A stretch of DNA of 35,875 bases from Nitrospirales bacterium (lineage in GTDB: Bacteria > Nitrospirota > Nitrospiria > Nitrospirales > UBA8639): assembly GCA_029261255.1 (NCBI GenBank), contig JAJDBQ010000081.1, forward strand, positions 1 to 35,875, written 5' to 3'. Under the pieces are notes generated by a model. It was not told where the DNA came from. It searched no databases and saw only the letters and a program-made list of their open reading frames with translations. Of this stretch, positions 9,835 to 26,431 are shown piece by piece. Both the position numbers and the translations under genes were made by a program. Positions within the stretch are counted from its first letter, which is position 1; every line of letters begins with the position of its first letter.

Positions 9835-9908
9835 TGGGGGATCGTCTAATGGTAGGACGTCAGATTCTGGTTCTGATTGTGGGGGTTCAACTCCTCCTCC
9901 CCCAGCCA
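9835..9908 (+). tRNA. tRNA-Gln (anticodon CUG), integration target
   Basis: A full cloverleaf can be drawn. The acceptor stem pairs TGGGGGA (9835-9841) with TCCCCCA (9898-9904). The D arm carries the TAATGGTAGGA-type loop. The anticodon stem is TCAGA/TCTGA with loop TTCTGGT, giving anticodon CTG. The variable loop is four bases, and the T arm is GGGGG/CCTCC around TTCAACT. The discriminator is G, and CCA is encoded (9906-9908). The 3' 49 bases, from the anticodon arm to CCA, are repeated exactly at 26383-26431, so an integrative element has entered here and restored the gene. Confidence 0.95.
9860..9908 (+). repeat. attL core: 49-bp direct repeat within tRNA-Gln
   Basis: These 49 bases (the 3' part of the tRNA-Gln gene, starting at the anticodon stem) recur identically and in the same orientation at 26383-26431. 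The flanking bases differ on both sides (G versus A before, C versus A after), which defines the ends. Identity of this length at the two ends of an integrase-bearing segment is the standard mark of site-specific integration into a tRNA gene. Confidence 0.93.
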
Positions 9909-9932
9909 CTTTTCCTCTCTCAGCTCCCTGTC

Positions 9933-9954
9933 TAGCAATCACCTAGCAATCACC
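9933..9954 (+). repeat. Left arm-type integrase sites (two 11-bp repeats)
   Basis: TAGCAATCACC occurs twice head to tail, at 9933-9943 and 9944-9954, 25 bases inside attL. The same pair, with one base changed in the second unit, lies at 26250-26271 inside the right end. Tandem short repeats at both ends of an element and next to its integrase are the expected pattern of arm-binding sites for the integrase N-terminal domain. Confidence 0.75.
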
Positions 9955-10012
9955 AGGACGCAAAAGAAAATCGAACTTGGGTGCCTGGAAGCCTGCTGCT
10001 ACAATTGGCGGT

Positions 10013-10663
10013 ATGGCGAAGTCCAATCCTATTAAATCTCGTCGAAAACCTCAGCCGCAATTAGATACCAAAAGTTGGCTTGAGCCAGAACGCCAATCGC
10101 TTGAGGACGTAGCTTCCCAATGGGGAAGGTCACTTTCTTTTGTCGAGGAATGCGTCCGGACATTGAAATTTAGACATGTCATCTTTGTGAACGACTCCAC
10201 ACGTGGTCTGCCAGTCACGGATCATTTTTTTTTCCATAAAGACTGTTGGCCTTTTGGCGATACCACCATGAACCGGGTGGGTACACGTCCACCGATTTTC
10301 GCTCACCTTTGTGACCCTTCTGCTTACCCTAATGGTTATTATTGGCCAAGCGGAGCGAAAGTTTTCATTCCAGTTGAAGAGATTAAACGGATTAAAAAGG
10401 AAAAAGAGAGAAAGAAATCTGGCCAGCAAATATTTTTAGAAGCAGATTATCATTCGAAGCAATTAGAGGCTGCCAACTATTGCTCACATCGCCTGTATGG
10501 CCTTGGAGAGTTTGTTGCTAATCGTGGGCACCGAGACCAAATATTGAAACTCCTCGAAGAAAAATATGGTGGCCAAGAATGGCTGTCTTCCAAAATGAAA
10601 GAACGAATCGTTCAAATGGTTAACAAGAATCCTCTCGGAGGTTCTCCTCGACTCAATCATTAG
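10013..10663 (+). CDS. Hypothetical element protein, left end
   Basis: Not recognised. The 216-residue product from ATG 10013 (an in-frame TTG at 9977 would extend it by 12 residues) is basic at the N-terminus, with KSNPIKSRRKPQPQ. It then has a short segment, SLEDVASQWGRSLSFVEECV, with helix-turn-helix-like spacing, a histidine/aromatic-rich middle, and a lysine-rich helix (IKRIKKEKERKKSG). DNA binding is plausible but unproven. It is the first gene inside attL and is transcribed away from the tRNA. No strong ribosome-binding site is seen for either start. Confidence 0.6.
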   Translation: MAKSNPIKSRRKPQPQLDTKSWLEPERQSLEDVASQWGRSLSFVEECVRTLKFRHVIFVNDSTRGLPVTDHFFFHKDCWPFGDTTMNRVGTRPPIFAHLCDPSAYPNGYYWPSGAKVFIPVEEIKRIKKEKERKKSGQQIFLEADYHSKQLEAANYCSHRLYGLGEFVANRGHRDQILKLLEEKYGGQEWLSSKMKERIVQMVNKNPLGGSPRLNH

Positions 10664-10757
10664 TTGGTCAGAAAAACCTGGCCCCCCTTCCCAAACCGTT
10701 TTTCCCTAAATATTTCAAAAAGTTAGTGGTTCCTGGTCTTTCTTTTTGGTCATAACC

Positions 10758-10767
10758 CGGGTACCCG
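10758..10767. promoter_or_regulatory. Perfect 10-bp palindrome upstream of HTH gene
   Basis: CGGGTACCCG is a perfect palindrome 95 bases before the likely start of the HTH protein gene. Its position in a short intergenic gap ahead of a putative regulator/excisionase suggests an operator. A palindrome this short can occur by chance. Confidence 0.3.
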
Positions 10768-10861
10768 TTCCCCCGTTGTGATCAGAATTGCAATGCGCCA
10801 TTGTGCGCTCATGAATGGCAATCGCATTTATTCAAACTCTTGGGGGCCAGCGAGGGACAAA

Positions 10862-11077
10862 ATGTCAAACAGCACAATTCAGCCGGAAATGCTTCGTCAT
10901 ATGCGGACCGATGAAGCGGCCAATTATCTTCGACTTTCCAGGTCGACCTTGGAAAAGTTGAGGCTGAGCGGGTTGGGTCCGCCTTACATCAAATCAGGCC
11001 AACGCATCGTTATTTACAAACTAGAAGATCTCGATGGTTGGTTGGAAGGGCGGAAACATTTATCAACAAGTGAATGA
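10862..11077 (+). CDS. AlpA/excisionase-like helix-turn-helix protein
   Basis: A 71-residue DNA-binding protein (ATG 10862; an upstream in-frame start at 10778 adds 28 unlikely residues). The fold is the MerR-like winged HTH of excisionase/AlpA proteins: MRTDEAANYLRLSRSTLEKL, followed by the PPYIKSGQRIVIYKLEDLDG wing and helix. In phages and satellites such proteins switch on excision or the early operon. It lies directly ahead of the coiled-coil and RepA-like genes on the same strand, as alpA does in many islands. A role as recombination directionality factor for the integrase at 25010-26233 is likely but inferred. Confidence 0.8.
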   Translation: MSNSTIQPEMLRHMRTDEAANYLRLSRSTLEKLRLSGLGPPYIKSGQRIVIYKLEDLDGWLEGRKHLSTSE

Positions 11078-11081
11078 AAAA

Positions 11082-11113
11082 AGCCCCGCCCGAGCGTGAA
11101 CTCAGAGCGGGGC
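11082..11113 (-). terminator. GC-rich hairpin, T-tract on minus strand
   Basis: GCCCCGC (11082-11088) pairs perfectly with GCGGGGC (11107-11113) around an 18-base loop. The hairpin is preceded by a run of six A on the plus strand, so it reads as hairpin plus T-tract only on the minus strand, although genes on both sides are on the plus strand. It may stop antisense transcription, or act as an RNA structure between the HTH gene and the next operon. Confidence 0.5.
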
Positions 11114-11132
11114 AAAACACGGGAGAAATGGA

Positions 11133-11477
11133 ATGGGAAATACTAACGAACTCTATGATGACTCGCAAGGTCATCCGCATTACCGGGAAGACCTCATAGA
11201 TTTTCCAGTTTCGAACGTCTTCGCTGATTATTATTTCCAAGAGGGGTATTCAACTTATCGGCCACCTCAATCAAAGCGGCAAGCATCGGCCAGCGACGCG
11301 AACTTAAAACGCAAGGTTGAAAGCCTGGAAATCAAGGGGAGCGGACTCCAGGCCGAATTCGAAGGACTCACACGAAAAGTTGAGGCCCTTTCACAAGAGA
11401 TCGAGGATTTAAAAGCACAGCCACCAACGAAACGTAATGGTAGGTCAATTGGTGTCCCTGTGGAGGATTTGGAGTGA
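11133..11477 (+). CDS. Small coiled-coil protein preceding the RepA-like ATPase
   Basis: Not recognised by family. The 114-residue product has an acidic, aromatic N-terminal half (FPVSNVFADYYFQEGYSTY) and a coiled coil at about residues 55-97 with heptad spacing (LKRKVESLEIKGSGLQAEFE and onward). Its start has GGGAGAAATGG nearby. Its TGA overlaps the GTG start of the ATPase gene (GTGA at 11474-11477), so the two are translationally coupled and the products may interact, perhaps as a replication accessory or loader. Confidence 0.65.
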   Translation: MGNTNELYDDSQGHPHYREDLIDFPVSNVFADYYFQEGYSTYRPPQSKRQASASDANLKRKVESLEIKGSGLQAEFEGLTRKVEALSQEIEDLKAQPPTKRNGRSIGVPVEDLE

Positions 11478-12688
11478 TATCCCCGACTACCGAAAAAACC
11501 GGAACCGGTTTTTCCATGTTTTGGCAAGATGCCGATCTTCTCTTTGAGTTTGAAAATTTTTCAGAAACGAAAGCTTGGGGCCCCGTCTGTGAACTTGGCG
11601 TCACGATAGGGCTCAATGGCCACGCGGTTAGAATTGAGCAAGCCAGGGTCAAATTGGCCAGCGTCAGTGATCGAGGCCAATGGACAAAACGGTTGCAGGA
11701 AGTCCATCCACACCTTCCTTGGAAAGAGATCATCCAAAGTTCCTTTATCCGAGTTCAGAGTGAACGGCGGAAGGGTGAACCTCCTATTCGTTTGTCCGAA
11801 GCGGCGCAAGGTCCAGCTGCCGCCTACCGTATCAACCCCCTGATCCACGATGAGTTGCCCTCTACCATCTTCTGTGAAGCTGGCAGCGGAAAAAGCTATC
11901 TGGCACTTCTATGTTGCATGCTGGTCGAGGCAGGGGAAACCGTCTGTGGTTTGTCGGCTGTCAAAGGTCGAACATTATTCCTTGACTGGGAAGTATCCGC
12001 ACAAGTCCATGGTGAGCGATGGCGACTGCTTCGAACCGGACACCCTGAATTAGCCGCTAGTGACCCTCTCTACAAACGCATGAATGCGCCTCTACCCGAT
12101 GACCTGCAATCCGTTCAACGGTTGGTCACCACCCATGACATTCAATTTGTAGTGGTTGATTCGCTCGGTCCTGCAGCCGGTCAAGAATTATTGGGAGCAG
12201 AAACGGCAATTCGTTTTTTTCAAGCAGTTCGTACTTTGAAAACCGCCGTGTTGGTCATTGGGCATACGGCCAAAAATTCTGAAAATAAAAGCATTTTCGG
12301 TTCCGTATTTTTCTTCAATTTAAGCCGGAATGTGTTCGAACTCAAAAAATCTCAAGATTCCCAAGATGATGTTCTACGAATAGGTCTTCATCATCGCAAA
12401 TCAAATCTTTCCAAGCTCCATCGACCGTTTGGATTGGAACTATCTTTTGATCCTGAACAGGTGAAATTTTCAAGCTTTGATTTAGGCACAGATACGGAAT
12501 TGGCCAAAGACCTTCCGTTGAAAGACCGGATGGTCAAAGTCCTGGGACAAGGAGCCATGACCGCCCGAGAATTGGCCGAGGAAATAGACGCCAAACTTGC
12601 TCAGGTGAAGGTACGCCTCAGCCAAAATAAAGGCGAATTATTCATTCAAATGGGACAGGATAAATGGGGCTTATTACGCAAGTTTTAA
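11474..12688 (+). CDS. RepA-like RecA-fold ATPase
   Basis: A 404-residue AAA_25/RepA-type ATPase of the kind used as a replicative helicase or helicase loader in plasmids, prophages and satellites. The P-loop is EAGSGKSYLALL near residue 136; the usual first glycine of GxxxxGKS is a cysteine here. A Walker B-like FVVVDSLG lies near residue 225, and VIGHTAKN follows as a sensor strand. The last 60 residues (MTARELAEEIDAKLAQVKVR) look like a winged helix. Translation starts at GTG 11474, overlapping the previous stop. The GTAAC-rich repeat cluster immediately downstream is a candidate origin. Confidence 0.8.
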   Translation: MISPTTEKTGTGFSMFWQDADLLFEFENFSETKAWGPVCELGVTIGLNGHAVRIEQARVKLASVSDRGQWTKRLQEVHPHLPWKEIIQSSFIRVQSERRKGEPPIRLSEAAQGPAAAYRINPLIHDELPSTIFCEAGSGKSYLALLCCMLVEAGETVCGLSAVKGRTLFLDWEVSAQVHGERWRLLRTGHPELAASDPLYKRMNAPLPDDLQSVQRLVTTHDIQFVVVDSLGPAAGQELLGAETAIRFFQAVRTLKTAVLVIGHTAKNSENKSIFGSVFFFNLSRNVFELKKSQDSQDDVLRIGLHHRKSNLSKLHRPFGLELSFDPEQVKFSSFDLGTDTELAKDLPLKDRMVKVLGQGAMTARELAEEIDAKLAQVKVRLSQNKGELFIQMGQDKWGLLRKF

Positions 12689-12697
12689 TGAAATGCC

Positions 12698-12860
12698 GGT
12701 TACTGATAACTGTAACCGCTAACTGGGGTGTAACTTTGGACACGCAAGTTATTGAAATATTGAGAGTTACACCTGTAACTGGTTCTTGTAACTACGCCTT
12801 GAGAGTTACAACGACACACCCCCTCTTTCTTAAGAGGGTGTTGTAACTCGTGGTGTAACC
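12698..12860. repeat. Cluster of nine GTAAC/GTTAC motifs, candidate origin or operator array
   Basis: In 163 bases directly after the RepA-like gene, GTTAC or its complement GTAAC occurs nine times (starting at 12699, 12712, 12730, 12766, 12775, 12788, 12805, 12843, 12855). Longer units recur: TTGAGAGTTACA at 12760 and 12799, TTGTAACT at 12787 and 12842, and GGTTAC/GTAACC forms an inverted pair at 12698-12717. A 7-bp hairpin CCCTCTT/AAGAGGG also sits inside. Spacing is irregular (9-38 bases), unlike classical iterons, but the density is far above chance. Confidence 0.7.
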
Positions 12861-12931
12861 GGTCAAAAAGGAACTTAAAAGTGAGAGCACATGAAGGCAT
12901 GTTTTATTCATCCATTCAACGAAAGGATCAC

Positions 12932-13087
12932 ATGACCATCAAAGAAAGACTCAAGGTTGCAGGTTCGATCATCGTGGCCGTTTTCTGGGATCTATGGCGG
13001 CCTATACGCAGGCAAGGCATTCCAAACAATCATTCCCGGCCCGATAGGGGCCACTTACCATCATCCAAGCGAAAGGGTCCACAATGA
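12932..13087 (+). CDS. Small basic protein with hydrophobic segment
   Basis: Not recognised. From ATG 12932, which has GAAAGGA six bases upstream, the product is 51 residues: a short amphipathic start (MTIKERLKVAG), a hydrophobic stretch (SIIVAVFWDLW) and a basic, polar tail. A GTG at 12881 with AAGGAA upstream would give 68 residues. It overlaps the next gene by ATGA at 13084-13087, which supports its being translated. It is possibly a membrane-associated early protein. Confidence 0.5.
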   Translation: MTIKERLKVAGSIIVAVFWDLWRPIRRQGIPNNHSRPDRGHLPSSKRKGPQ

Positions 13088-13707
13088 AAAACGCACTCAA
13101 AAAAATCATGCTGACTGACACTGACACCCAACCTGAGTCAATCATTCCTCAATGGCGGGATGATCCGGAGTTTGTAAAGTGGACAGACAAAGCCCGAGAG
13201 ATCAGCCAACAACTACATCAAGCCGAATCCGAGCAACGAGGAATCAAGGAAGACGTGGAGCAGGCACAACAGGCAATCATCGAGGCCAAAAGCTCACTTA
13301 TCTTAGGCGAAGGGACCGAGTCGGAAGTGGTTGCAGCGGAATCGCATTTGGAGAACTGCCAACAAAAAAAGAATGCATTGGGCCTAGAAACCAAAGCCTT
13401 GGCAGCTGCACAAAATAGGGCCGAACAAGAAGCCAAGGAAAGCGAGGCAGCGGCCAAAGAGCAAGCCAAGGCGATCATCTTGCCCCTATACCAAGAGCTG
13501 GTCGCGGGCACACTGGCAAATATTGAGGCCGTGATCGAGAGCGATCAGGCGGTGCAAGACTTTGAGAGGTCAGTCAGCCAAAGCGGATTGACATTGTATC
13601 CTGGCTCATTCGGCTCACCTTTCACCCTTAACAGCCTGAATATTCCCCATGGCGTGAAAGATTACAAGCGAACGGTTGAGGGCCTGCTCAATAAGACCAA
13701 GCTCTAG
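13084..13707 (+). CDS. Coiled-coil protein of phage-like style
   Basis: Not recognised. The 207-residue product is an alanine-, glutamate- and glutamine-rich coiled coil over about residues 35-150 (ISQQLHQAESEQRGIKEDVE, AAAQNRAEQEAKESEAAAKE), followed by a short globular C-terminus containing GLTLYPGSFGSPFTLNSLN. The start overlaps the stop of the upstream small gene. Proteins of this shape in phage and satellite genomes include scaffolds and tail-assembly chaperones, but no specific function can be claimed. Confidence 0.65.
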   Translation: MKNALKKIMLTDTDTQPESIIPQWRDDPEFVKWTDKAREISQQLHQAESEQRGIKEDVEQAQQAIIEAKSSLILGEGTESEVVAAESHLENCQQKKNALGLETKALAAAQNRAEQEAKESEAAAKEQAKAIILPLYQELVAGTLANIEAVIESDQAVQDFERSVSQSGLTLYPGSFGSPFTLNSLNIPHGVKDYKRTVEGLLNKTKL

Positions 13708-13772
13708 GCAGTAGGCCAAGGGGCAAAAGAATAATCAATCGATATTTATTTATATGGGGGGAGGGTAACAGA

Positions 13773-13931
13773 ATGAAGGATCAACCCAAGCACAAAGAGA
13801 AGAAGAGTGAGGGGGAACCCAATACTTTGGCCGCATTGGTTCATGAGCCTGAGGTCAAAGAGATGATCAGCAAAGCCGAGTTGGGAACGGTTCATTTAGT
13901 CATACCAGAGCACCACCCAGTAGCCCTGTAA
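13773..13931 (+). CDS. Small hypothetical protein, 52 residues
   Basis: ATG 13773 follows a strong GGGGGAGGG ribosome-binding tract. The product has a lysine-rich polar start (MKDQPKHKEKKSEGEPNT), then LAALVHEPEVKEMISKAELG, a predicted helix, and a hydrophobic end (VHLVIPEHHPVAL). No family is recognised. It lies between the coiled-coil gene and the terminase-like gene on the same strand. The clear ribosome-binding site is the main reason to believe it. Confidence 0.5.
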   Translation: MKDQPKHKEKKSEGEPNTLAALVHEPEVKEMISKAELGTVHLVIPEHHPVAL

Positions 13932-14138
13932 AAGGCGCATGGACAGGGCACAGTAAAGAGGGCGAGTGGATGATCAAGAAAAAAAGAACGTCGAAGGATG
14001 GACAATTAGCGGTTGTTCATGTGGGGATTTAGTTGGGGTTATATCAATATAAACACTCAAGGGTCCTGTCTGGCGGCATGGCGGGTATGCACGGGAAATA
14101 TCCGCAATAAAAACAACGAGTTACGTACAACAAAATTC

Positions 14139-14813
14139 ATGGAAAGAAAAGAACCAATAAAGATGCCCCAAAACGAGGCGGCGAAAAGAGCAGCAACAGG
14201 AACTAAGAAACCAAAAGCCGAGGGGAAAGCCAACCCAAAACCAAAGGCCAAACCTCAGTCGCGGGTTAAGGCAAGCCGAGTGTTGAAAAACAAGAAATCC
14301 CCGATTTGGGCATTCACTTTTCGGGATGCTGCCCGGATGAGCGGCACAAGAACCAAGACGCTTCAAGACTGGATCCTGTTGGGTGCGATTAAGAGGCGGA
14401 AGGACGGCGGATTCAACATCACGGAGATTTTAGAATTGAAGGCCAAAGAGGGAGGGGGCAAGAACTTAAAGAGTGGGGCCACCAAGAGCCTGAAGGCCCA
14501 AAAAAGTTATGAGGACTATTGGGCCACGAAGGCTGAAACGATGGCCCTCAATTTACAGGTTCAGAAAGGGGAGTTAATCAATCTAGAAGATGTGACTGAA
14601 GCCCTTATTGAGCGAGAGGTAATTTTAAAGAATCGCCTACTCGGGCTGCCTAGTTTATTTGCCTCTCAATTGGCGGGTTGTGAGCCGGGAGAAATTGAAC
14701 AAATAAGCAGGAAGGCGATTGCCGATTTGTTGAGAGATTTAGTCCGGCAAGGATCGGCAGCCTACAACAAGGCTCGGTCTAAAGAGGCGCATCAAAGCGC
14801 GGAAGCGGAATAA
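14139..14813 (+). CDS. Terminase small subunit, Nu1-like
   Basis: The product is 224 residues from ATG 14139 (216 from ATG 14163; the open frame reaches back to 14013). After a lysine/alanine-rich tail it has an N-terminal winged HTH, FTFRDAARMSGTRTKTLQDW, with the wing in LGAIKRRKDGGF. A helical region follows (YWATKAETMALNLQVQKGEL and INLEDVTEALIEREVIL), ending in RLLGLPSLFASQLAG. This is the layout of phage lambda Nu1 and related packaging proteins, which recognise the cos/pac site. A large terminase subunit is missing from the element, so the protein would have to redirect a helper phage's motor, as TerS of chromosomal islands does. The start is uncertain because no clear ribosome-binding site is visible. 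Confidence 0.75.
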   Translation: MERKEPIKMPQNEAAKRAATGTKKPKAEGKANPKPKAKPQSRVKASRVLKNKKSPIWAFTFRDAARMSGTRTKTLQDWILLGAIKRRKDGGFNITEILELKAKEGGGKNLKSGATKSLKAQKSYEDYWATKAETMALNLQVQKGELINLEDVTEALIEREVILKNRLLGLPSLFASQLAGCEPGEIEQISRKAIADLLRDLVRQGSAAYNKARSKEAHQSAEAE

Positions 14814-14838
14814 TTTATTTTCAACAAAAGGAGCTTGT

Positions 14839-15378
14839 ATGAACATGGAGCCACATCCCAAAGATTCATTTTCGAGTGTGATGCGTTATACGTTGGGCCG
14901 CCCAGGAGAAAGCTCCCTTGACCTGTATGCCCAAAGTCCGAATATCGGTATTACTAGGACGTTTGAGGGTGGGCGAATGGCCGGCAACGATACCAAAGAA
15001 TTTCGCATCCCCGAGCGGTGGGTCATCCGTGGCGGGTGTTGCTTGGCTCTCTGCCAAGATAGTTTGGTCAGGCCAGCCCTTCCAGAATATGGCCTTGAAC
15101 GGATTGTTGGATTCTGTATTCGAACCATCGAGAACAATCGGGTAGCCGTGAGGGTCGCCGGCTCGATTCTCTTGAAGGTGGAAGGGCTTGGCTTGAACGA
15201 TGCCGGGAAAACGGTCTTTGTCATTGGCCCCAATACGTTCACCTTCAACAGTCAGGTGGGCGGGATGCCTTTAGGAACAGTGAAACACATTGAAGCCGCG
15301 GGAGCCATGGTGAGCTTTGGGGCTCGACAAAAAGTCGCAAAGGAATGCTACGCGGGTGCAGTCGGAAGACACTACTAG
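14839..15378 (+). CDS. Possible phage decoration/capsid-cement protein
   Basis: A 179-residue, beta-rich protein behind a strong AAAAGGAGC site. The segment from residue 60 on has the rhythm of DUF2190-type capsid cement proteins: VIRGGCCLALCQDSLVRPA, then IVGFCIRTIENNRVAVRVAG, then KTVFVIGPNTFTF and PLGTVKHIEAAGAMVSFGA. That is, a gated value, a recurrent barrel, and a final strand with the AAGA-type ending. The similarity is judged by eye only. The location, just after the terminase-like gene, supports a virion role. An unrelated small beta-barrel remains possible. Confidence 0.45.
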   Translation: MNMEPHPKDSFSSVMRYTLGRPGESSLDLYAQSPNIGITRTFEGGRMAGNDTKEFRIPERWVIRGGCCLALCQDSLVRPALPEYGLERIVGFCIRTIENNRVAVRVAGSILLKVEGLGLNDAGKTVFVIGPNTFTFNSQVGGMPLGTVKHIEAAGAMVSFGARQKVAKECYAGAVGRHY

Positions 15379-15685: not shown

Positions 15686-16309
15686 ATGAGAACAGCCACC
15701 GAACAAAACTTAGGGGGCGGGGCTTCTTTGCAGGACATTGAAACGAAGGTCTTTGCCATCCTTGACCGATTGGTCGATTCAAAACGCCAATCCAAGCCAG
15801 AAAGGAAACCCAAGCCAATCACAAAGCAAAAGGCAGTCAAGCAACCATTTACCGCGACGGGGGGCAGAACGATGGCACAGACGGTTGAACTACAACGACA
15901 GGCGCAACGAGCGGAACGCATCAGACTTTCCAAGATCTACGAAGCCGGGAGAAAGCTCGGGCGCCCCACTGCATTTCTCAGCAAGTTGGTTGAGAGTGAG
16001 GTCTCATTGGAGCAAGCCTTTGCGGCCATCATTGACGATGTGGGGGAAAGAAAATCCAAAGGCCAAGGAACGAAGATCTTGCCCGGCCGACCACGACAAT
16101 CGGTAACCGCATCCCAAGTATCGACACCGAGTCTGGATCCAGATAGCCCAGAAGCAGCCGAGTTTTCATTTAAGCAAGAATGGTCACGGAGTGGGGCCCT
16201 GCAATCCGAGTTTCCCAACTTCAAGCACTACGCGGCGTTCAGGCGGCATGAGTCGCATATCAAGATTTTAGGGGGCAGGGTACTGAAGGGCGAACGGGTT
16301 GGTCGGTAG
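15686..16309 (+). CDS. Possible prohead scaffold-like protein
   Basis: 207 residues from ATG 15686, which has GGGAGGGTG just upstream. The first 80 residues are polar and basic. The middle, ERIRLSKIYEAGRKLGRPTA followed by FLSKLVESEVSLEQAFAAII, and the end, FKQEWSRSGALQSEFPNFKH then YAAFRR, resemble the C-terminal scaffold part of many S49/ClpP-type prohead proteases. There, a repeated helix-turn unit is followed by an EW...L..EF..F..YLAYR-like motif. No protease domain is present. A free-standing scaffold homologue would suit a satellite that remodels helper capsids. The match is by eye and needs a profile search. Confidence 0.45.
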   Translation: MRTATEQNLGGGASLQDIETKVFAILDRLVDSKRQSKPERKPKPITKQKAVKQPFTATGGRTMAQTVELQRQAQRAERIRLSKIYEAGRKLGRPTAFLSKLVESEVSLEQAFAAIIDDVGERKSKGQGTKILPGRPRQSVTASQVSTPSLDPDSPEAAEFSFKQEWSRSGALQSEFPNFKHYAAFRRHESHIKILGGRVLKGERVGR

Positions 16310-16636: not shown

Positions 16637-18403
16637 TTAGTCCTTTTGGTCTTCCAGTGTTTTAAAAAGCAGTTTGCCTATACACCAAATAGATTGTCCA
16701 AAATTCGAAATCAGTTGTTCGCCTTGTCTTAAAAACGACTTGCTCTTGTCAATTCCAGCGAGCTCTAATGCCTCTCCAATCTTCGAACTGGTCGGGTGAG
16801 CATCACCTACTCGCATGTCATACACACCAGCAATTGCGCGGAACACTGATCCAGCTTTATCAGTCCCAACCCTCTGGGCCAAAATATCCTGAAGAAGCTT
16901 ATTCGAACCGAGTTTATCCTTATCTGAATGCGTTGAAATCTTACGGAGCGCACGAACATCAAGCCGATCCGAAAAAACACGAACAAGCTCTTTAGCTAAT
17001 CTTAGCAATGACGCCTGATCTTTGCTCGCGAAGCGGGATATATGCTGCATGGCTGCGGCATATTCTATGTCGTGAGTGTAAAGAGAAGCGTTGAACTCTT
17101 GACGGAATCCCCTCTCTAGCAACTTCATAACCTTGAAGAGAAGATCTTCAACAGCATGGGTAGATGCTGGATGAGATTTTACTTGTGATGCCAATAGCTC
17201 AGTTGAAACCTTTCCATCCGGAACAACGTTATGAGCAGCCCAAATATGCTGCTCCCACGGGTCAAGGCGGGCAATATCATAAGCGTAGACAGTGATAAAA
17301 TCCGAGGAATTTATTCCGAAGTGAGTCCCACGCCCTGATGTAGAGCAAATGCCACCTGTTTCTGCCGTATACCACTTAAGAGAAAAACCGCGAAGACCGA
17401 GAAGCTCGCTTACTACGCTGGAACGGAACCACAACCATCGACCAATGTCTTCATTGTTTAAATCGGCAGATGCCATGCGCGTTCCGTCAGTTTCGACGAT
17501 GAATTGGGGAAGATTCTTATCAGCATCCCTTCGAACACGAATACTCTGCCCTTGATGTTCAATCCATTCGTCTCGCCAAAACTCGCCCTCTACCCGTATA
17601 CCGTCGTAACCACTATGATCTCCCCGTGAGCTTTCATGGTCGGTGTTGTCATCACTTACTGGCCCCATCACTGGGGCGTCTTCGTCTTCATCAACATCAG
17701 TTCGCCAAGCCCGAGATAAAATCCAATTTCCTCCATAGACATCATTCAACCTGCGAACTCTGAGCTCAAATCGCCCTCCGTCTCGCTGTTCTTGCTTATC
17801 TGCCAAACTTGCGTATTCACTCCCTTGCAGCGAAGCAACATTTTCCACTCTTTGGCGATAGCAAGAGAGACGAAGTGATAGGTTCCTTGCTGCCAAATAA
17901 TCGAGAAGAAACTCTCGCTTAATCTCGATCATGCGGTGTTCGCCGTTTTGATCGAGAACCTCCCGAGCTACCACAACGAAATTCTCTTCTGGCCTTACCC
18001 AGTTTGTTCCTTCCTTTATCAGACGAAGCGCAATAACTAGATCAGGATTTAGCACCCATAGACTTCCGCCAACTACTGGTTGAGGGTGTTCGAAGACAAG
18101 GTGAACTCCGACTGGTTCTTTGTCATTGCATTGATATTGTTCGATGGACGAGTAGTAACCATCCTCGTAAGCATAAGGCTGGACCCTGCAACCGACTCCA
18201 ATATCAGTCCAACTAAGTTGTTCCGCGACTTCTCGATGCTCCGGAGGGAACGCAACAGACCCACATCCAAAATACTCACTGACGTAGCCTATATTTTGAA
18301 CTTCACCCTGCTCCTCATCGCAGGAGGCTCTCAAGGGAACCCAGGTCGCACGAGAGAAGGCTCGACGAGTTTCTTTCTCTAAGAGAATCCAGTCTTGGTC
18401 CAT
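16637..18403 (-). CDS. Large hypothetical protein with C-terminal HEPN-like motif
   Basis: No family recognised with certainty. The 588-residue soluble protein has an acidic, beta-rich N-terminal half with a low-complexity acidic insert (DVDEDEDAPVMGPVSDDNTD). Its C-terminal third is helical, ending in AIAGVYDMRVGDAH (about residue 530), which contains R-x4-H. That is the catalytic signature of HEPN ribonucleases, in the usual position within a helical bundle (RAIAGVYDMRVGDAHP...EALELAG). Large proteins with a C-terminal HEPN domain are common abortive-infection effectors. The gene is the largest in the cargo half and stands alone on the minus strand. Defence function is inferred. Confidence 0.6.
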   Translation of the reverse strand: MDQDWILLEKETRRAFSRATWVPLRASCDEEQGEVQNIGYVSEYFGCGSVAFPPEHREVAEQLSWTDIGVGCRVQPYAYEDGYYSSIEQYQCNDKEPVGVHLVFEHPQPVVGGSLWVLNPDLVIALRLIKEGTNWVRPEENFVVVAREVLDQNGEHRMIEIKREFLLDYLAARNLSLRLSCYRQRVENVASLQGSEYASLADKQEQRDGGRFELRVRRLNDVYGGNWILSRAWRTDVDEDEDAPVMGPVSDDNTDHESSRGDHSGYDGIRVEGEFWRDEWIEHQGQSIRVRRDADKNLPQFIVETDGTRMASADLNNEDIGRWLWFRSSVVSELLGLRGFSLKWYTAETGGICSTSGRGTHFGINSSDFITVYAYDIARLDPWEQHIWAAHNVVPDGKVSTELLASQVKSHPASTHAVEDLLFKVMKLLERGFRQEFNASLYTHDIEYAAAMQHISRFASKDQASLLRLAKELVRVFSDRLDVRALRKISTHSDKDKLGSNKLLQDILAQRVGTDKAGSVFRAIAGVYDMRVGDAHPTSSKIGEALELAGIDKSKSFLRQGEQLISNFGQSIWCIGKLLFKTLEDQKD

Positions 18404-20594: not shown

Positions 20595-20948
20595 CTAGGC
20601 ATTCGCCTCAGGCATCTTATTGGCCGTCTGTTTTCCCCATTCCAATAACTGAATAGTCCGGCCTAGAAGCTCCTTGGCGTGATCAGCCGAGAGGCCATGC
20701 TTAAGGATCACTTCCATGAGTTCTTCAATGACGGCGTTCTCTTGAGCGGTGAAGCGTTTGGAGGATGGGTCGGTAGAGTTAGCAGAGTCGGCTTTCTGTT
20801 TCAGCTGTTGGGCGAGCGTCAGAATTTCTTGCTTGGTGAGGAGACCTTTTTGTTCGAGCAATTCCCCGAGAGCGGCGAGCTCATACATCGAATCGATGGT
20901 CATGTCACAGAGGTTCTGGAAGTCTTTGCGGTCTATGGGGTCAGGCAT
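20595..20948 (-). CDS. Small helical hypothetical protein
   Basis: Not recognised. From the codon at 20948 (MPDPIDRKDFQNLCDMTIDS) the product has 117 residues and is predicted all-helical, with MYELAALGELLEQKGLLTKQ and FTAQENAVIEELMEVILKHG, then LSADHAKELLGRTIQLLEWG. The open frame continues upstream to 21098, but the extra 50 residues have a composition unlike a real N-terminus and no support. No clear ribosome-binding site is visible at either start. Confidence 0.55.
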   Translation of the reverse strand: MPDPIDRKDFQNLCDMTIDSMYELAALGELLEQKGLLTKQEILTLAQQLKQKADSANSTDPSSKRFTAQENAVIEELMEVILKHGLSADHAKELLGRTIQLLEWGKQTANKMPEANA

Positions 20949-21100
20949 AGGAAAATCGTATACGGGTGGGAGCCAGGATGACAATGGTAACACCAACCTT
21001 CCCCATCCGAGGAATGGTACTCCCAGGCTCCATCCTTCATGATGTGAGTCCTTTGTTAAAAGCACCTTGGCGGGAAAGAATGCCCCCGCTAAGATCATTG

Positions 21101-21133
21101 CGCCCCCTGGGATTAGGACTTCTTCAGGGGGCG
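21101..21133 (+). terminator. Strong GC-rich inverted repeat
   Basis: CGCCCCCTG (21101-21109) and CAGGGGGCG (21125-21133) form a perfect nine-pair stem with a 15-base loop, followed on the plus strand by TGGTGTTTTT. It reads as an intrinsic terminator for plus-strand transcription, yet genes on both sides (20595-20948, 21156-21881) are on the minus strand. It may block transcription running in from the opposite direction. Confidence 0.55.
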
Positions 21134-21155
21134 TGGTGTTTTTAGATCACTGTAT

Positions 21156-21881
21156 CTATTGAAAAACTAGATCCCAACTATATATCAAGATATTACCGAG
21201 GAAATATAGAATGCAAAATAAATAGAGAACCGTGGGAAGTAAATAAATAAAATCTTCAACAAATCCGAAAACTTTTGTAATTATTTTTTCATTAGAAATT
21301 GTAACATGGTGATAAGATTGGTCTGGAATAACTTGCAGATCCCCTGGTGCTATAAAGGGAAAATGTCGTCCTAAAACTCTATGAATGGCTTGATTCGCAA
21401 TGGCATCACCTTTATTTGCGTACTCCTTTTCTACGGAAATGAAAAATTCCGAGTAATAATTACCGGGAACAGATTCTTGCCTTTTGACAAAGGGAAGAGT
21501 TGAATGTTTCCCTTTTTTCAAATTAGAAAGATGTAAATCCCTTTGTTTGCTTCGTTTTTCAATCTGGCTCTCTTCCACAGGCTCAACCAGCACTCCAAAT
21601 TCTTTGAGCCACCTTCTTAATTGATAAGGTATTGGTTTCTGAAAGCATTGGCGGTATAAAAAAAGAAACAAAGCATAAAAGATTACTACATAGGTTAGTA
21701 CAATAATTACCCAAGGATTTCCAATGGTTAGCTCTCCCAGCCAAGGAATAGTTAGTTTGTTAGATGAAAATTTTGCATCTCCGAATGTGATAACAAAGAA
21801 AATTAAACTCATTCCTAGAGTAAAGCGGCGTAATCCAGCCTCGCGAGGATCTACTTCGTTCTGAGTGTATGATGATTCCAT
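21156..21881 (-). CDS. Membrane protein of unknown function
   Basis: Not recognised. 241 residues. Two or three membrane helices lie in the first 80 residues (FTLGMSLIFFVITFG and NPWVIIVLTYVVIFYALFLF). A soluble central region (about 85-200) includes NYYSEFFISVEKEYANKGDA, and a final membrane hairpin is FIYLLPTVLYLFCILYFLGN. The coding sequence is visibly AT-rich compared with the backbone genes, consistent with recent transfer. It lies 149 bases downstream of the TIR gene on the same strand and may be expressed with it. Confidence 0.6.
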   Translation of the reverse strand: MESSYTQNEVDPREAGLRRFTLGMSLIFFVITFGDAKFSSNKLTIPWLGELTIGNPWVIIVLTYVVIFYALFLFLYRQCFQKPIPYQLRRWLKEFGVLVEPVEESQIEKRSKQRDLHLSNLKKGKHSTLPFVKRQESVPGNYYSEFFISVEKEYANKGDAIANQAIHRVLGRHFPFIAPGDLQVIPDQSYHHVTISNEKIITKVFGFVEDFIYLLPTVLYLFCILYFLGNILIYSWDLVFQ

Positions 21882-22030
21882 TGAATCCTAATTAAATTAC
21901 TGCCCATTTTCCCTAGCGCATTTTACAAGGGCTCAAGACATTGCGGTCGATCATTCCTCGGATTATTCACCAACGTTCTCATCTGAAACGTTTCTATCTG
22001 TTCTCACGAATTAAGCGGCCGTACATTCCC

Positions 22031-23071
22031 TCATTCCGCCTTTTCCTTCTTAGTCGGCTGGTCTTCTTTCAGGTCTTTCAATAAACGTTTAAAGGCTTTT
22101 TGATATGCTGAATTGGTTTCCCAATTGGTAAAGTCGGGAATGTAATAATCGCGGACTTTATCGGCCAAATCTTCTCCTACAGTCGCATCGAAACATTCCC
22201 AGGTTTGAATATGCTTGAAATCGACCAACCCAAGAGGAAAGAGTTTTCGTTTGTTCTGTTGGCCCTCAGCTTTGAGCGTTCGCTTTAATTCGGTTACCAC
22301 CCACTTACTGTTCATACTATTGGGGGAGAGAATCAGCAACAATTTGTCATGTACTCGAATGGCCGAATCAATTTGATGATAGAGTTTCATCCCACCCCGA
22401 ACATCCTCAGGTGCAAACCAACAACGCACCCCGGCATCTTGAAGGTCTGAATAGAGACGTCTTGCAAAATCTTCATCCTTTGAGGAATAGCTAATGAAAC
22501 ATGAATAAAACTGGAAGGCTTGGTTGTGAAAGAGAGAAGGAATATATGTAATGAATTTTTCAGACAGTCCGCATCTTTGCAAAAACTTGTTGCCAAGATT
22601 TTGAGAAATCCTAAGCGTGTGCTCATCCAAATGACTGGGTCCATTATGGTGGCAAGTTCTAAGTCCGTAAACGTTTGAAAGGTCAACATTGGCGAAAATT
22701 GTGTAAGCTAATGTTGTTGCCGTGAAGTTTGTCCTTGTAAAAGACCCTAACATGAAAATGGCAACGGTCAGGTTTGCGCCAGTAAGATCTGCCTCGTTCA
22801 AAATCGCACCACCAAGGTTCGCCCCAGCGAGCTGCGCCTGGACAAGGTTGGCCTGGCTTAGATTCGCGCGCGTCAATATTGTTCCATTGAGAAACGCCTG
22901 ACTTAGGTCTGCACCGCTCAGGTCCACAAGGTCGAACCTCGCTCCGTTGAGATTTGCCCTGCTTAAGTTGGCACCTCTGAGGTCTATATATTCATTTACA
23001 TATTTCTTTCGCCACGCATTCCAGACCTCAACGCCTTCCTTGAGTTTTGCGAGATGTTCAGGATTGGCCAT
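22031..23071 (-). CDS. Pentapeptide-repeat and TIR-domain protein
   Basis: 346 residues from ATG 23071; a TTG at 23086 would add five. Residues about 32-135 are pentapeptide repeats of A(D/N)LxxA type (LRGANLSRANLNGARFDLVD), predicted to form a right-handed beta-helix. Residues about 188-330 are a TIR domain: FISYSSKDEDFARRLYSDLQ, then GVRCWFAPEDVRGG, then LLLILSPNSMNSKWVVTEL. The W257-x3-E261 pair matches the catalytic glutamate position of NAD+-cleaving TIR domains. Known bacterial TIR proteins of this kind act in anti-phage abortive infection, and pentapeptide helices often act as recognition or scaffold modules. Its defence role is inferred from domain type and its location in an element. 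Confidence 0.88.
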   Translation of the reverse strand: MANPEHLAKLKEGVEVWNAWRKKYVNEYIDLRGANLSRANLNGARFDLVDLSGADLSQAFLNGTILTRANLSQANLVQAQLAGANLGGAILNEADLTGANLTVAIFMLGSFTRTNFTATTLAYTIFANVDLSNVYGLRTCHHNGPSHLDEHTLRISQNLGNKFLQRCGLSEKFITYIPSLFHNQAFQFYSCFISYSSKDEDFARRLYSDLQDAGVRCWFAPEDVRGGMKLYHQIDSAIRVHDKLLLILSPNSMNSKWVVTELKRTLKAEGQQNKRKLFPLGLVDFKHIQTWECFDATVGEDLADKVRDYYIPDFTNWETNSAYQKAFKRLLKDLKEDQPTKKEKAE

Positions 23072-23304
23072 AAGGGGGATTCTCAAGGAGTAGGAAGCAA
23101 ATTCATTCTGCTGGTGTTCAGGTTGCTACCATACAAAATCTGCTTGATAAAGGGAATGGAGAGAAGGGATGCAGTGGGTTAATGGGTCGCCTTGTGTCTG
23201 GGAACAAAATGGGTTGAATTATTAGGAAAAATCTGCATACTACCATCAATCATATAACTGCCTCATTTCAATATTTACGTTTCTAAAATAAGTGAGAGTT
23301 GAAA

Positions 23305-24624
23305 ATGAATAATTTTGTCCGGGTAGCCGCTTTACTTCTAGCAACCGTCATGTTGAGTGGATGTTTAGCAAACATGAACTCTATATATAGGGAATTTGAT
23401 GTTAACCGCGGTCAGAGTGTTTCCATAGATGCAAAGCAGCGAGTCGTGCTGGTCACAAAAAATGGGGTATGTGCTGAGCCTAGCCCAGATGCACTTTCTG
23501 TAATAGGGGCTTCTCTAGCAGCCAGTGGTGCGACTCCTCAGCAAATTTCAGTGCAGCTGGCAGCTGCGATGTCAGAGACCGGTTCCAATATCGGAGTCAG
23601 ATCCCAAACAATTCAGCTTTTGCGGGATGCTATGTATAGATTGTGTGAGGGACACATAGGTGGTGCAATACGTGGCCCAGCCTTTATTAAACTTCAAAGA
23701 GTGTATCAAAATGCAATGATGGGGTTACTTGCGATTGAACAATTAACGGGGGCTGTTGCCCCTAGAGCTAGAATCATAAACGCTTCGGCTAAAGCTGATT
23801 CCGGTACTTCATTACTCGAAGCTCAGAAGTCTCTTGAGATAGCTCGAGAGAGCTTGGATAAATTAGAAAAATCCCTCAAGAAGGCAAATGACGATTTGGC
23901 GAAGGAGCAAGGAGCCCTGAGAGAAAAAAACAAGGAATCTGAAACTCTTAAAACAGCTTCCGAAAGTGATTCTAGTAAAACAGCCGAGGCAGCGGCAGCG
24001 GCTAGTAAAGCTACTCAACAGAAAGAGATGACAGATAAAACACAAAAAATCGTAGACGACCTCCAAAAGCAAGTCGAGGACGCAAAAAAGAATTTGAAAG
24101 CTGCAGAAGAGTTTCGTGATCGTTCCAGAGGTGTAAAATCCAAGACTGGTGGTAAGGGACAGTTTTTAGGAAACACAGGATCAACGAGTTCCACAATATC
24201 AAAAGAAGCTGCCAAGGAGTTAGGAGCCGCAGTAGTGGCTATTGTTAAAGAAATTGTGAACGCAAGTTATGCCGAAGAAACGTGTTTAGAAATTGAGTTG
24301 AAGAATTTAGAGTTGCAGGCGGCTGCCCCTGCCCTTGCCCCTGCCCCGGTGGCAGCTCTTGGTGCTGTGAAATATTTTGATAAGTTTGGTAATGCGCGAG
24401 AATTTTGTGAAAAAATTCTAAACCTAAAAGCACGTCAAGCTTTTCGGGAAACTGCAGAAAAACCAAATTCTTTGCCAGGCCAAAATGCAGATTTTGAGGC
24501 ATTACGGCAAATAGAATTAGAAAATGAAAAGATGCGTCAGCAACTCAGGAAAATAGAACTAGAACGTGAGTTAAAAAGGCAGAAAGAACTTAAAGCTACA
24601 GAGGACATAAAACTCGGGCCATAA
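23305..24624 (+). CDS. Coiled-coil lipoprotein
   Basis: 439 residues from ATG 23305 (TTG 23299 is in frame). A lipoprotein signal peptide ends in the lipobox LSGC (about residue 20), so the mature protein is lipid-anchored. A globular region (30-150) is followed by a long lysine/glutamate/alanine coiled coil (SLEIARESLDKLEKSLKKAN and on, about 175-275), a glycine/serine-rich segment, an APALAPAPVAAL linker and a charged C-terminal helix (about 390-439). No family is recognised. It is the only plus-strand gene of the right half and is divergent from the TIR gene across 233 bases. Confidence 0.7.
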   Translation: MNNFVRVAALLLATVMLSGCLANMNSIYREFDVNRGQSVSIDAKQRVVLVTKNGVCAEPSPDALSVIGASLAASGATPQQISVQLAAAMSETGSNIGVRSQTIQLLRDAMYRLCEGHIGGAIRGPAFIKLQRVYQNAMMGLLAIEQLTGAVAPRARIINASAKADSGTSLLEAQKSLEIARESLDKLEKSLKKANDDLAKEQGALREKNKESETLKTASESDSSKTAEAAAAASKATQQKEMTDKTQKIVDDLQKQVEDAKKNLKAAEEFRDRSRGVKSKTGGKGQFLGNTGSTSSTISKEAAKELGAAVVAIVKEIVNASYAEETCLEIELKNLELQAAAPALAPAPVAALGAVKYFDKFGNAREFCEKILNLKARQAFRETAEKPNSLPGQNADFEALRQIELENEKMRQQLRKIELERELKRQKELKATEDIKLGP

Positions 24625-25009
24625 ATTTAAATTCAAGGGAAGGAATGAAGGGGAGAATAAAATAGAAAACAGCACTATGTTTTCAATTGTTTGGAAGCAA
24701 AACGTCTGATTCTTTTGTTTAGCCAATTAGATATTTCAGAAAACCTCCTCCTAGCAAGTTGAGGGGGAACTTGGGCTAGTCTTGTGAAGCGGATCCAGAA
24801 GATAAGACTGAAAAATTAAAAGTTTACCTCTGAACACTTAGGCCTTTCATTTGCGGACGATACTGACTCTATCTCATTCACACTAAAAAGTGTGAGATAT
24901 CATCTGTCTTTATAGGAATTTTGTAACTCCTAATCACACTCAATCATTCTAGGGTAGTAGTGTTCTTGGTCGCCTTGCCAAGCGGAGAGTAATTAGTGCC
25001 TTCCATCGG
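24625..25009. other. Gap between convergent genes with a 7-bp hairpin
   Basis: No gene is visible in these 385 bases. TCACACT-AAAA-AGTGTGA at 24878-24895 is a perfect seven-pair stem with a four-base loop, lacking a T-tract. It sits between the lipoprotein gene (plus strand) and the integrase gene (minus strand), so it could end either transcript, or be a binding site. Confidence 0.5.
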
Positions 25010-26233
25010 CTATTTTTTCACCTTCTTCCGTGGTCTTAGAATCGAATGGAGAGGCGCCTTCGATTTTCCAGACATTGCCGCATGAAGACGATCTCCAATT
25101 TCATCATTCGCTTTTTTCAGCGGGTCTTGATCAAGATGGGCATAGCGATTCGTGGTTGCAGCATGGCGATGGCCGAGCAAAGCTCCGATCGTAGGTAGAC
25201 TCATTCCTGCTCCGGCTCCTACGCTGGCAAAGCTATGCCGGAGATCATGAAGTCGCACATCTTCAAGATTCGCCTCTTTCCGTAACTCTATCCATCCAGC
25301 ATGAAGGTTAACTAAATGGGCGCCACGTTTATTGCCTGGAAGGACATAGGGGTTCCCCTCAATCCGTGGCAATGAATCCAACACGGCTAGGGCAGGGGCG
25401 TTGAGGTAGACGGTTTTTGCACCAGTTTTAGAATCAGGGAGTCGAAGGTTCTGCTTCTCAAAGTTTATGAAGTCCCACCTGAGCGTCAGAACTTCAGAGA
25501 GTCGTGCTCCAAGAAAGATCAAGAGTTTGATCGCTGCAATGACAGAGAGTGAATGAGCCTTATCCTGTTCCGCCTTTGCGAGGACTTTTCCTAATCGTGT
25601 GAGTTCTCCTTCGTTTAAGAACCGCTCCCGTTTTTCCTCTTTATACTTTGGAACGTGGCGGCAGGGATTTGACCCATCAGGACGGTACCCCCATTTCTCC
25701 GCTAGGTTGAAGAGGGTTGTGAGGACTGCGAGGACTCGATTCGCTGCGACCGGCGTTTGCTTAAGGTCATGATGCAGTTTGGCAATGTGAGATCGAGAGA
25801 TTTTATCGATGCGTTTGGCTCCCAATGTGGGAAGCACTAAGTTGTTGAGGTTGCGTCGATCTTCGGCTACGGAGCGAGGTTTCTTCTGAAGCTCTGCGTA
25901 TTCTTTCAGATAGCGTTCAGCGAATATGGTTAAAGTCAGACCCCCTTTGTCCTGTTGCTTCGCTTCCGCTGGATCTGTTCCAGTTGCAATGAGTCCCAAG
26001 AGTCGCGTGGCTTCTTTTCGAGCGGCATCGGGTGTCCATGGTCCATGTTTCCCAAGCGTATAGCGTCGAGAGGCTGACCCTCTTCCTCCCATGCGGTATT
26101 GGAGAATATAGATTCGCGTGCCAGTAGGTGTGACTTTTAAGCCAAATCCATGTAGGTCCGTGTCCCACAAAAACCGGTCAGTTTTTGCTAGAGTAATGCT
26201 ATCAACAGCTCGTTTGGTGATTTTGCCTTGCAT
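25010..26233 (-). CDS. int: Tyrosine-type site-specific integrase
   Basis: 407 residues in the phage/island integrase family with an Arm-DNA-binding domain (DUF4102-like, about 1-95: LWDTDLHGFGLKVTPTGTRI). A SAM-like core-binding domain (about 100-180) and a catalytic domain follow. The catalytic residues are R244 in GARLSEVLTLRW, K269, H329 and R332 in LHDLRHSF, H355 in LLGHRHAATTNRY, and the nucleophile Y364. It recombines attP with the tRNA-Gln attB. The start ATG at 26233 lies 17 bases from the right arm repeats, so its own promoter is probably overlapped by integrase sites, suggesting autoregulation. Confidence 0.96.
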   Translation of the reverse strand: MQGKITKRAVDSITLAKTDRFLWDTDLHGFGLKVTPTGTRIYILQYRMGGRGSASRRYTLGKHGPWTPDAARKEATRLLGLIATGTDPAEAKQQDKGGLTLTIFAERYLKEYAELQKKPRSVAEDRRNLNNLVLPTLGAKRIDKISRSHIAKLHHDLKQTPVAANRVLAVLTTLFNLAEKWGYRPDGSNPCRHVPKYKEEKRERFLNEGELTRLGKVLAKAEQDKAHSLSVIAAIKLLIFLGARLSEVLTLRWDFINFEKQNLRLPDSKTGAKTVYLNAPALAVLDSLPRIEGNPYVLPGNKRGAHLVNLHAGWIELRKEANLEDVRLHDLRHSFASVGAGAGMSLPTIGALLGHRHAATTNRYAHLDQDPLKKANDEIGDRLHAAMSGKSKAPLHSILRPRKKVKK

Positions 26234-26249
26234 GGTCTGATGTCCTGGC

Positions 26250-26271
26250 TAGCAATCACCCAGCAATCACC
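26250..26271 (+). repeat. Right arm-type integrase sites (two 11-bp repeats)
   Basis: TAGCAATCACC at 26250-26260 followed by CAGCAATCACC at 26261-26271, the same paired unit and orientation as at 9933-9954. They lie between the integrase start and attR (112 bases from the attR core). Both pairs are followed within a few bases by GCAAA. The conserved pairing at both ends supports arm-site function. Confidence 0.75.
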
Positions 26272-26382
26272 GCAAATGAAGTCAGGGGAAACTAGAGGAT
26301 AGACAATGCAAGATGATAGGCGTAAAATCAGTGTATTATCAAGGGGAATGAGGCACGATGAAAGATCATGAAACGTACGTCA

Positions 26383-26431
26383 TCAGATTCTGGTTCTGAT
26401 TGTGGGGGTTCAACTCCTCCTCCCCCAGCCA
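26383..26431 (+). repeat. attR core: second copy of 49-bp tRNA-Gln 3' end
   Basis: Exact copy of 9860-9908, spanning the anticodon stem to CCA of the tRNA but lacking the acceptor 5' strand and D arm, so it is not a tRNA gene. It defines the right end of the element. Confidence 0.93.

Follow-up and report, generated by a model that had tools for sequence, protein, structure and literature searches.

The question raised by this stretch of DNA, contig JAJDBQ010000081.1 of a Nitrospirales bacterium, is what kind of mobile element occupies its tRNA-Gln gene. We call the whole stretch of 35,875 nucleotides the window; it is an entire contig (C231) of a 4.36-Mb genome in 251 contigs that is 88% complete. 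An earlier note on this DNA proposed a phage satellite resembling phage-inducible chromosomal islands (PICIs) or P4. We consider it likely that the element is an integrated phage satellite. On the best reading, it falls outside the P4-like and capsid-forming PICI (cfPICI) groups, is unlike classical PICIs in replication, and would take its particle from a lambda-type helper. The attachment (att) copies and neighboring repeats are as follows.

9835..9908, + strand: tRNA-Gln (CTG), the integration target, whose 3' part is attL (ARAGORN; direct repeat)
9861..9911, + strand: attL core, a copy of 26384-26434 within a 61-base repeat
9927..9954, + strand: candidate integrase arm sites, a 28-mer holding TAGCAATCACC twice, with a 93% copy at 26244-26271
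26244..26271, + strand: second copy of the arm-like 28-base repeat, just inside the right end
26384..26434, + strand: attR core, within the 61-base direct repeat
27571..27616, + strand: third att copy, worn (87% over 45 query bases)

The element spans positions 9861-26434 (16.5 kb) and has a copy of the tRNA-Gln 3' end on either side. The 61-base direct repeat (9852-9912 and 26375-26435, 93% identity) covers the 3' part of the tRNA gene; from 9861 the att core has a single differing base, near its end, and is otherwise identical. The integrase gene adjoins the right att copy. In another genome of the same genus (G039), the site is empty: the left flank (92% over 1640 bases) leads into the tRNA (74 of 74 bases), and the right flank (83% over 1442 bases, counterpart of window position 27622 onward) begins 5 bases beyond it. 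Because flanks and tRNA are contiguous there, the insertion is real, and this arrangement indicates that 9909 to about 27621 was inserted, comprising the 16.5-kb element and a 1.2-kb remnant. The att-bounded element in tRNA-Gln described by the earlier note is thereby confirmed. In each 28-base repeat, TAGCAATCACC occurs twice, one of them with one mismatch. With up to one mismatch allowed, the motif has four matches in the window, all at the two element ends, a count reached by 2 of 100 shuffles. We infer from their placement inside both ends, which is as expected, that these repeats are integrase arm sites.

The remnant (26435-27621) probably stems from a previous insertion into this tRNA-Gln. 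It lies between two att copies and contains one 231-amino-acid open reading frame (ORF). The third att copy would be the original tRNA 3' end, displaced by that earlier insertion. Behind this tRNA, two genomes (G040 and G041) carry about 8–10 kb of other DNA with further att copies, and two more (G032 and G044) carry less than 1 kb, so the site is an insertion hot spot.

Between the att copies lie genes for integration, regulation and replication as well as genes linked to packaging and the capsid (E values in brackets).

10778..11077, + strand: AlpA-type helix-turn-helix (HTH) regulator/excisionase (HTH_17, 1.9e-10; phrog_66, 4.2e-8)
11474..12688, + strand: RepA-type replication ATPase (AAA_25, 4.2e-12; phrog_6012, DNA helicase, 5.4e-6)
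12699..12861: iteron-like cluster, with eight TGTAACTG (at most one mismatch) and nine GTAAC/GTTAC
14139..14813, + strand: small terminase subunit (TerS), Nu1 type (phrog_57, 3.3e-10, profile positions 16-178 of 199)
14839..15378, + strand: probable capsid decoration protein (phrog_1731, virion structural, 0.046, marginal; fold search)
15686..16309, + strand: probable scaffold protein (phrog_4523, "major head and protease protein", 8.6e-5, positions 190-286 of 644)
25010..26233, - strand: tyrosine integrase (Phage_integrase, 8.9e-19; Arm-DNA-bind_3, 4.4e-16; phrog_1, 1.9e-55)

The integrase, the AlpA-like HTH protein and the RepA-like ATPase with its adjacent motif cluster had all been predicted in the earlier note, and the profile matches agree. 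The ATPase region additionally gave a weak match to a DNA polymerase/primase PHROG (8.8e-5). Downstream of the ATPase gene, the eight copies of TGTAACTG fall within 151 bases, compared with a maximum of five in 60 shuffles of the 395-base stretch; a count of eight was not reached for any word in 200 random 270-base stretches from these regions, where the highest was seven. This repeat cluster is probably the replication origin.

The three proteins that the earlier note had singled out for profile searches go to phage families or folds, TerS clearly and the other two moderately to weakly. TerS matches phrog_57 over nearly the whole profile, as expected for the Nu1-like protein predicted. It has a relative in G041 (E 1.1e-4) and no Pfam match, and tblastn of TerS and of the decoration protein against phages returned no match. 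The decoration-like and scaffold-like proteins both carry phage-type signals, as proposed, but with weaker support.

For the decoration protein, the two-sequence AlphaFold model had a mean predicted local distance difference test score of 53 and is therefore poor. All 50 PDB matches listed from its fold search were chains of tailed-virus particles or tail parts, with a best E of 5.1e-3 and none below 0.001. Thirty of these came from one entry, the procapsid outer shell of Borrelia phage BB1 (chains of 120–175 residues), six were named head-stabilizing proteins (the TW1 entry, lambda gpD and four of phage 21 SHP), and three were phi29 gp12 or prohead; other capsid entries were HFTV1, phiCD508, T1, Adjutor, Pam3, P74-26 and Sf14. 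Judged from their length, the unnamed chains of capsid entries would be decoration proteins. In a viral library, one match fell below 0.001 (an unnamed 1029-amino-acid protein), a capsid fiber protein ranked second and a DUF2190 protein 14th, and many other matches were long or unnamed proteins. Among 294 other genomes of the phylum, one homolog was found (G065, E 4.3e-7), near an HTH gene, an integrase and a tRNA-Glu at a contig end. The two-sequence alignment used as a query found no viral relatives.

The scaffold protein gave its phrog_4523 match with the ORF taken from 15617 (15617-16309). Six known head fusion proteins of the order match this profile at 4-279 or 321-641, which places the match at 190-286 at the end of the first part, before the capsid part. 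In tblastn, the only phage matches were to Pseudomonas phages LPPA33 and Y8 (37% over 59 residues), and the E value of the LPPA33 match was 0.3 against all phages and 6.6e-8 with seven chosen proteins as the database. The LPPA33 protein carries Phage_capsid_4 at residues 362-659 of 662 and an N-terminal part without a Pfam name, and the match falls before the capsid domain. Direct comparison with the six Nitrospirales head fusions gave nothing significant (E 0.13 or worse). We read 15686-16309, with moderate to low confidence, as a free scaffold domain, like the stretch that precedes the capsid part of head fusions. A scaffold match in G191 (E 4.7e-4) lies within a phosphoribosyltransferase and is due to chance, and an "EF..Y.A" motif common to the window protein and a G033 protein (in G065 by eye only) is too short to rely on.

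The rest of a phage structural set was not recognized. Twenty window ORFs were scanned with Pfam and 20 with PHROGs, 19 of them in common; the Pfam families above cut-off were HTH_17, AAA_25, pentapeptide and TIR, and integrase. In agreement with the earlier note, neither these scans nor six-frame searches of the genome found a large terminase (TerL), portal or capsid gene in the element. A 441-amino-acid ORF at 23299 matched tape-measure (0.0038) and virion structural (0.0092) PHROGs weakly, which we take as coiled-coil matches and do not count as tail genes. The six-frame searches covered five terminase and capsid families (phrog_57, GpA, phrog_4523, phrog_2 and Phage_capsid). They gave no further TerL or capsid match in the window beyond the known genes of the element; across the genome they returned a single phrog_57 and a single phrog_4523 match, both in the window, and no GpA large terminase or Phage_capsid match. 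The one phrog_2 match of the genome is PhoH (Pfam 1.4e-94). No source prophage was found with these families, and related small att-bounded elements recur elsewhere. As a positive control, the Pfam scan was applied to G023:C28, a phage region from this bacterial family, where it detected capsid, protease, portal and both GpA domains.

Relatives of the ATPase occur at eight loci, in 7 of the 294 other phylum genomes; these seven all belong to a different family within the order, and one is a Nitrospira sp. metagenome-assembled genome (VGXC01000033.1). An integrase lies within 9 kb at all eight loci, and a tRNA is in the region at seven. Five loci are att-bounded at tRNAs and measure 11.1–16.9 kb, counted with both att copies. 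These keep the ATPase-repeat core, and their phage genes differ (PHROG E values in brackets).

G090, 16.1 kb, tRNA-Glu: TerL (3.4e-216) and TerS (1.8e-15), with an HNH endonuclease (1e-8) nearby
G237, 16.9 kb, tRNA-Glu: TerS-like protein of 84 amino acids (3.7e-10) and tape-measure protein (5.6e-43)
G228, 15.4 kb, tRNA-Arg: TerL-like protein (1.5e-5)
G178, 14.8 kb, tRNA-Met: TerL-like protein (6.1e-6), without Pfam support
G136, 11.1 kb, tRNA-Glu: no recognized packaging gene

Both att copies were found at these five, and not at G323, which lies at a contig end, or at the two copies in G306. Among the families listed (25 of 27 Pfam families), none in 101 proteins of the five att-bounded relatives was a capsid, portal or tail family; this set left out four ORFs spanning two sequence pieces, including the G237 integrase. 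Similarly, no head or tail family was among the PHROGs listed (25 of 38) for 83 further proteins, 76 from the five elements, four from G306a and three from G323, with the TerS, TerL, tape-measure, ATPase and integrase genes excluded. A G306a protein that looked TerS-like by eye has no PHROG or Pfam family and was not counted. In G237 (L061:16237-18498), the tape-measure gene directly follows the TerS-like gene, and no other tail gene was recognized. The relatives' elements (L048/L049, L059/L060, L050, L053/L054 and L061) also match IMS translesion polymerase, S24 peptidase, SRAP, MazF-like toxin, PIN and DnaJ domains.

An iteron-like cluster follows the ATPase in seven of eight elements (the window and six of seven others), and the repeat sequence differs in each. 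Counts of the commonest 8-mer after the ATPase were 8 (window), 10 (G090), 14 (G237), 9 (G178), 8 (G228), 8 (G306a), 10 (G136) and 5 (G323) (at most one mismatch, either strand, stretches of 162–395 bases; G306b left out). Of 60 shuffles each, none reached the observed count for seven elements and one did for G323.

A scan of genome contigs with two ATPases gave one locus, the already known G323, tblastn against phages gave one weak match, and single-protein scans of viral contigs with the ATPase, TerS and decoration protein gave none. In two IMG/VR fragments found with an ATPase alignment (L085 and L086), genes for tape measure, RepA-type ATPase, Terminase_4 and capsid follow one another; upstream of them, an HTH-like and an integrase-like gene were identified by eye. 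Terminal repeats, a sign of circular genomes, were present in none of eight IMG/VR fragments (8 of 23 loci checked).

Several observations weigh against a satellite. Excision, packaging, a helper and transfer have not been observed. No helper was recognized in its own genome, at 88% completeness and with five families searched, and Pfam is not exhaustive, since it missed the TerS of G023:C28, and the tape measure that PHROGs detects in G237 is absent from the Pfam families listed. The decoration and scaffold identifications are weak. Four of the eight ATPase loci (G136, G306a, G306b and G323) have no recognized packaging gene, and the G237 ATPase is split over two frames. The alignment of seven ATPase sequences found 23 loci in IMG/VR, seven of them on contigs of 38–51 kb; a GpA TerL follows the ATPase in L087, and a P22-type portal lies upstream in L088. 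Because the family occurs in large viral contigs, the ATPase alone is no satellite marker. The same occurrence would suit a decayed lambda-type prophage that lost its structural module and kept the TerS, decoration and scaffold genes by chance, as would the fact that satellites and phages have genes in common. However, the reading frames of the recognized core genes are open, both att copies remain in place, and the six-frame searches for the five families gave no other TerL or capsid match in the window. Moreover, att-bounded elements at several tRNAs have a similar plan, a core with a few phage genes; such recurrence would not be expected from independent decay, and we regard decay as quite unlikely.

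We give still less credence to a plasmid-like integrative element that has its own RepA-type replication, acquired phage genes, and moves otherwise or not at all. Cargo and genes of unassigned function take up about 10 of the 16.5 kb, and RepA with iterons is a plasmid-type module, but Pfam found no relaxase or transfer gene in the 20 ORFs, TerS lies near two probable virion-linked genes, and related elements also encode terminase, capsid or tape-measure genes. A variant of the satellite reading, with odds that overlap it, holds that TerS alone matters and that the decoration-like and scaffold-like proteins act otherwise than by capsid remodeling. The weak profile support for both proteins, the poor decoration model and the failure of the scaffold to match any of the six head fusions are in its favor, yet two separate capsid-assembly signals, each weak, stand close together directly after TerS, and the decoration homolog of G065 is near an integrase and a tRNA; we think this variant rather unlikely. 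An integrated satellite is supported by the phage-type test proteins, the absence of a parent prophage among the families searched, and the related small att-bounded elements in other genomes.

How the element relates to known satellites was judged class by class. PMC13376191 describes phage satellites in general as 7–20 kb between att repeats, with integrase, regulation and replication genes and no structural genes. By its sequence, the element has these features, being a 16.5-kb att-bounded unit with an integrase, its own replication and regulation genes, and no complete structural module. It shares with P4-like satellites an integrase, an AlpA/Vis-type regulator and its own replication protein. 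P4 is not known to carry a TerS, whereas the element encodes one, and the Sid, Psu and alpha-primase families were not recognized in the element (20 ORFs each by Pfam and PHROGs). As described in PMC10690885, P4 Sid is a scaffold and the P2 terminase packages P4, and PMC11718236 describes Psu as a capsid building block; Sid and Psu offer a parallel in function to the element's scaffold-like and decoration-like proteins.

PICIs are described in PMC6092414 as having a specific att site, int, alpA, a replication gene with its origin, TerS in some, and putative phage-resistance genes. Like PICIs and the Staphylococcus aureus pathogenicity islands (SaPIs), the element is an island with a specific att site that contains int, alpA and terS. 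It differs in that an AAA_25 RepA-type ATPase with iterons replaces Pri-Rep, and in its host phylum; no primase family was found by Pfam in the window ORFs scanned. According to PMC10690885, cfPICIs have their own genes for capsid, protease, portal and connectors and for both subunits of the terminase. The element resembles them as a small integrated element with phage packaging genes, but TerS alone of that set was recognized. Satellites or packaged islands of marine bacteria (PICMI, PLE, VEIME and tycheposons) were compared by description. The capsid-remodeling protein of PLE is a scaffold. PLE uses a protein of its own to remodel the capsid of its helper (PMC10945586), and PICMIs encode neither capsid remodeling nor terS (PMC10803314); the element differs from PICMIs in having TerS and putative capsid-linked genes. 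Nor did the scans and six-frame searches described above recognize in it the large terminase, portal, capsid, tail and lysis genes of a prophage. The PICI/P4-like label of the earlier note therefore suits a way of working and not membership, because no hallmark of P4 or of PICIs was recognized apart from the integrase, the AlpA-type HTH and TerS, and the element's replication protein belongs to a different type.

Other small elements with TerS are present in the genus. Matches to phrog_57 were found in 10 of 48 genomes of the host's family, its own included, and in four other genomes of the genus they mark small tRNA-adjacent loci, three of them att-bounded.

G033:C372 (L030:9473-17782), 8.3 kb, tRNA-Arg: AlpA-type HTH, 765-amino-acid primase, Nu1-type TerS (1.2e-20)
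G041, 12.7 kb, tRNA-Leu: TerS (4.1e-5), two cargo genes in common with the window
G036:C33 (L035:2327-12271), 9.9 kb between two tRNA-Gln(TTG) copies: integrase, DnaB, 651-amino-acid protease-capsid fusion (2.1e-149), short TerS-like HTH protein (4.5e-5)
G040, worn and tRNA-adjacent: phrog_57 TerS, second att not found

The layout of the G033 element is P4/PICI-like. The G036:C33 element, in which no portal or TerL was found among the part of its proteins scanned, is a candidate minimal capsid-forming satellite and, with its protease-capsid fusion and short TerS-like protein, nearer to cfPICIs than the window element. The phrog_57 matches in G005, G012, G014 and G016 are weak. A GpA terminase occurs in 2 of the 48 genomes, and phrog_57 stands beside a GpA TerL at two loci (G036:C195 and G023:C28). 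The Nu1/GpA phage region of G023:C28 has a TerS of the same PHROG as the element, but also a GpA TerL, a portal and a protease-capsid fusion, none of which the element has; that fusion protein and the scaffold protein of the window did not match significantly.

The remaining genes of the element are of unassigned function or are cargo.

9977..10663, + strand: 228-amino-acid protein, no assigned function (PHROG at best E 0.05; no Pfam or PADLOC family)
11133..11477, + strand: small coiled-coil-like protein just 5' of the ATPase (phrog_7303, function unknown, 4.4e-4; Pfam coiled-coil sub-threshold only)
13084..13707, + strand: coiled-coil-like protein, 207 amino acids
15385..15681, + strand: 98-amino-acid protein, no assigned function (PHROG only E 0.061; no Pfam family)
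16637..18403, - strand: 588-amino-acid cargo protein (no Pfam, PHROG or PADLOC family)
20595..21098, - strand: cargo protein, C-terminal part common to the G041 element (61.5% over 65 amino acids)
21156..21881, - strand: cargo protein, membrane-like by eye, common to the G041 element (36% over 234 amino acids)
22031..23086, - strand: pentapeptide-repeat and TIR protein, defense-like cargo (Pfam 2.7e-23 and 5e-22; PADLOC SAVED_TIR 7.1e-14, TIR part only)
23299..24624, + strand: 441-amino-acid cargo protein (no Pfam or PADLOC family; lipoprotein-signal-like start by eye)

G090 and G237 have mutually homologous small proteins at the same place before the ATPase; their homology to 11133..11477 was not shown. 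Homology of the 207-amino-acid protein to coiled-coil proteins of the relatives was suspected and found no support, its sole match among 1160 ORFs of the compared elements being itself. The two cargo proteins common to the window and the G041 tRNA-Leu element are candidate defense genes. Their counterparts there lie at L009:12484-13209 and 17165-17389, and the G041 element also encodes a 711-amino-acid protein matching the PADLOC LmuA and Avs1a models.

If the element is a satellite, its cycle would begin when a lambda-type helper, with Nu1/GpA terminase, portal and protease-capsid fusion, infects or is induced and the AlpA-type regulator is turned on. The excised circle would replicate through its own ATPase and repeats, and its TerS would direct the GpA large terminase of the helper to satellite DNA. 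The scaffold-like and decoration-like proteins may enter the helper shell, perhaps altering its size or steadying it, and the helper would supply tail and lysis. The cargo, including the TIR-pentapeptide protein, may shield the host from other phages.

The best-known phage satellites are those of Proteobacteria and Firmicutes. Our literature search found no paper joining "phage satellite" and "Nitrospira"; the matches listed contain satellite or Nitrospirota terms, never both. We tentatively suggest, as a possibility held at somewhat below even chances, that the element belongs to an unnamed satellite family with a fixed core (an AlpA-type or other HTH protein, the AAA_25 ATPase and changing iterons) and one exchangeable slot of phage genes suited to the helper. 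In that case, the slot would hold TerS, decoration and scaffold genes in the window, TerS and TerL in G090, TerS and tape measure in G237, a TerL-like gene in G178 and G228, and TerS, capsid and tape measure in the IMG/VR fragments L085 and L086.

Nitrospira-type bacteria include nitrite oxidizers and comammox, and their phage biology is obscure. If such a family exists, one engine would be turned against the packaging, the capsid or the tail, depending on the helper, within Nitrospirales and perhaps outside this order. A constant core with changing phage genes would make helper switching testable, and the TerS sequence could indicate the helper.

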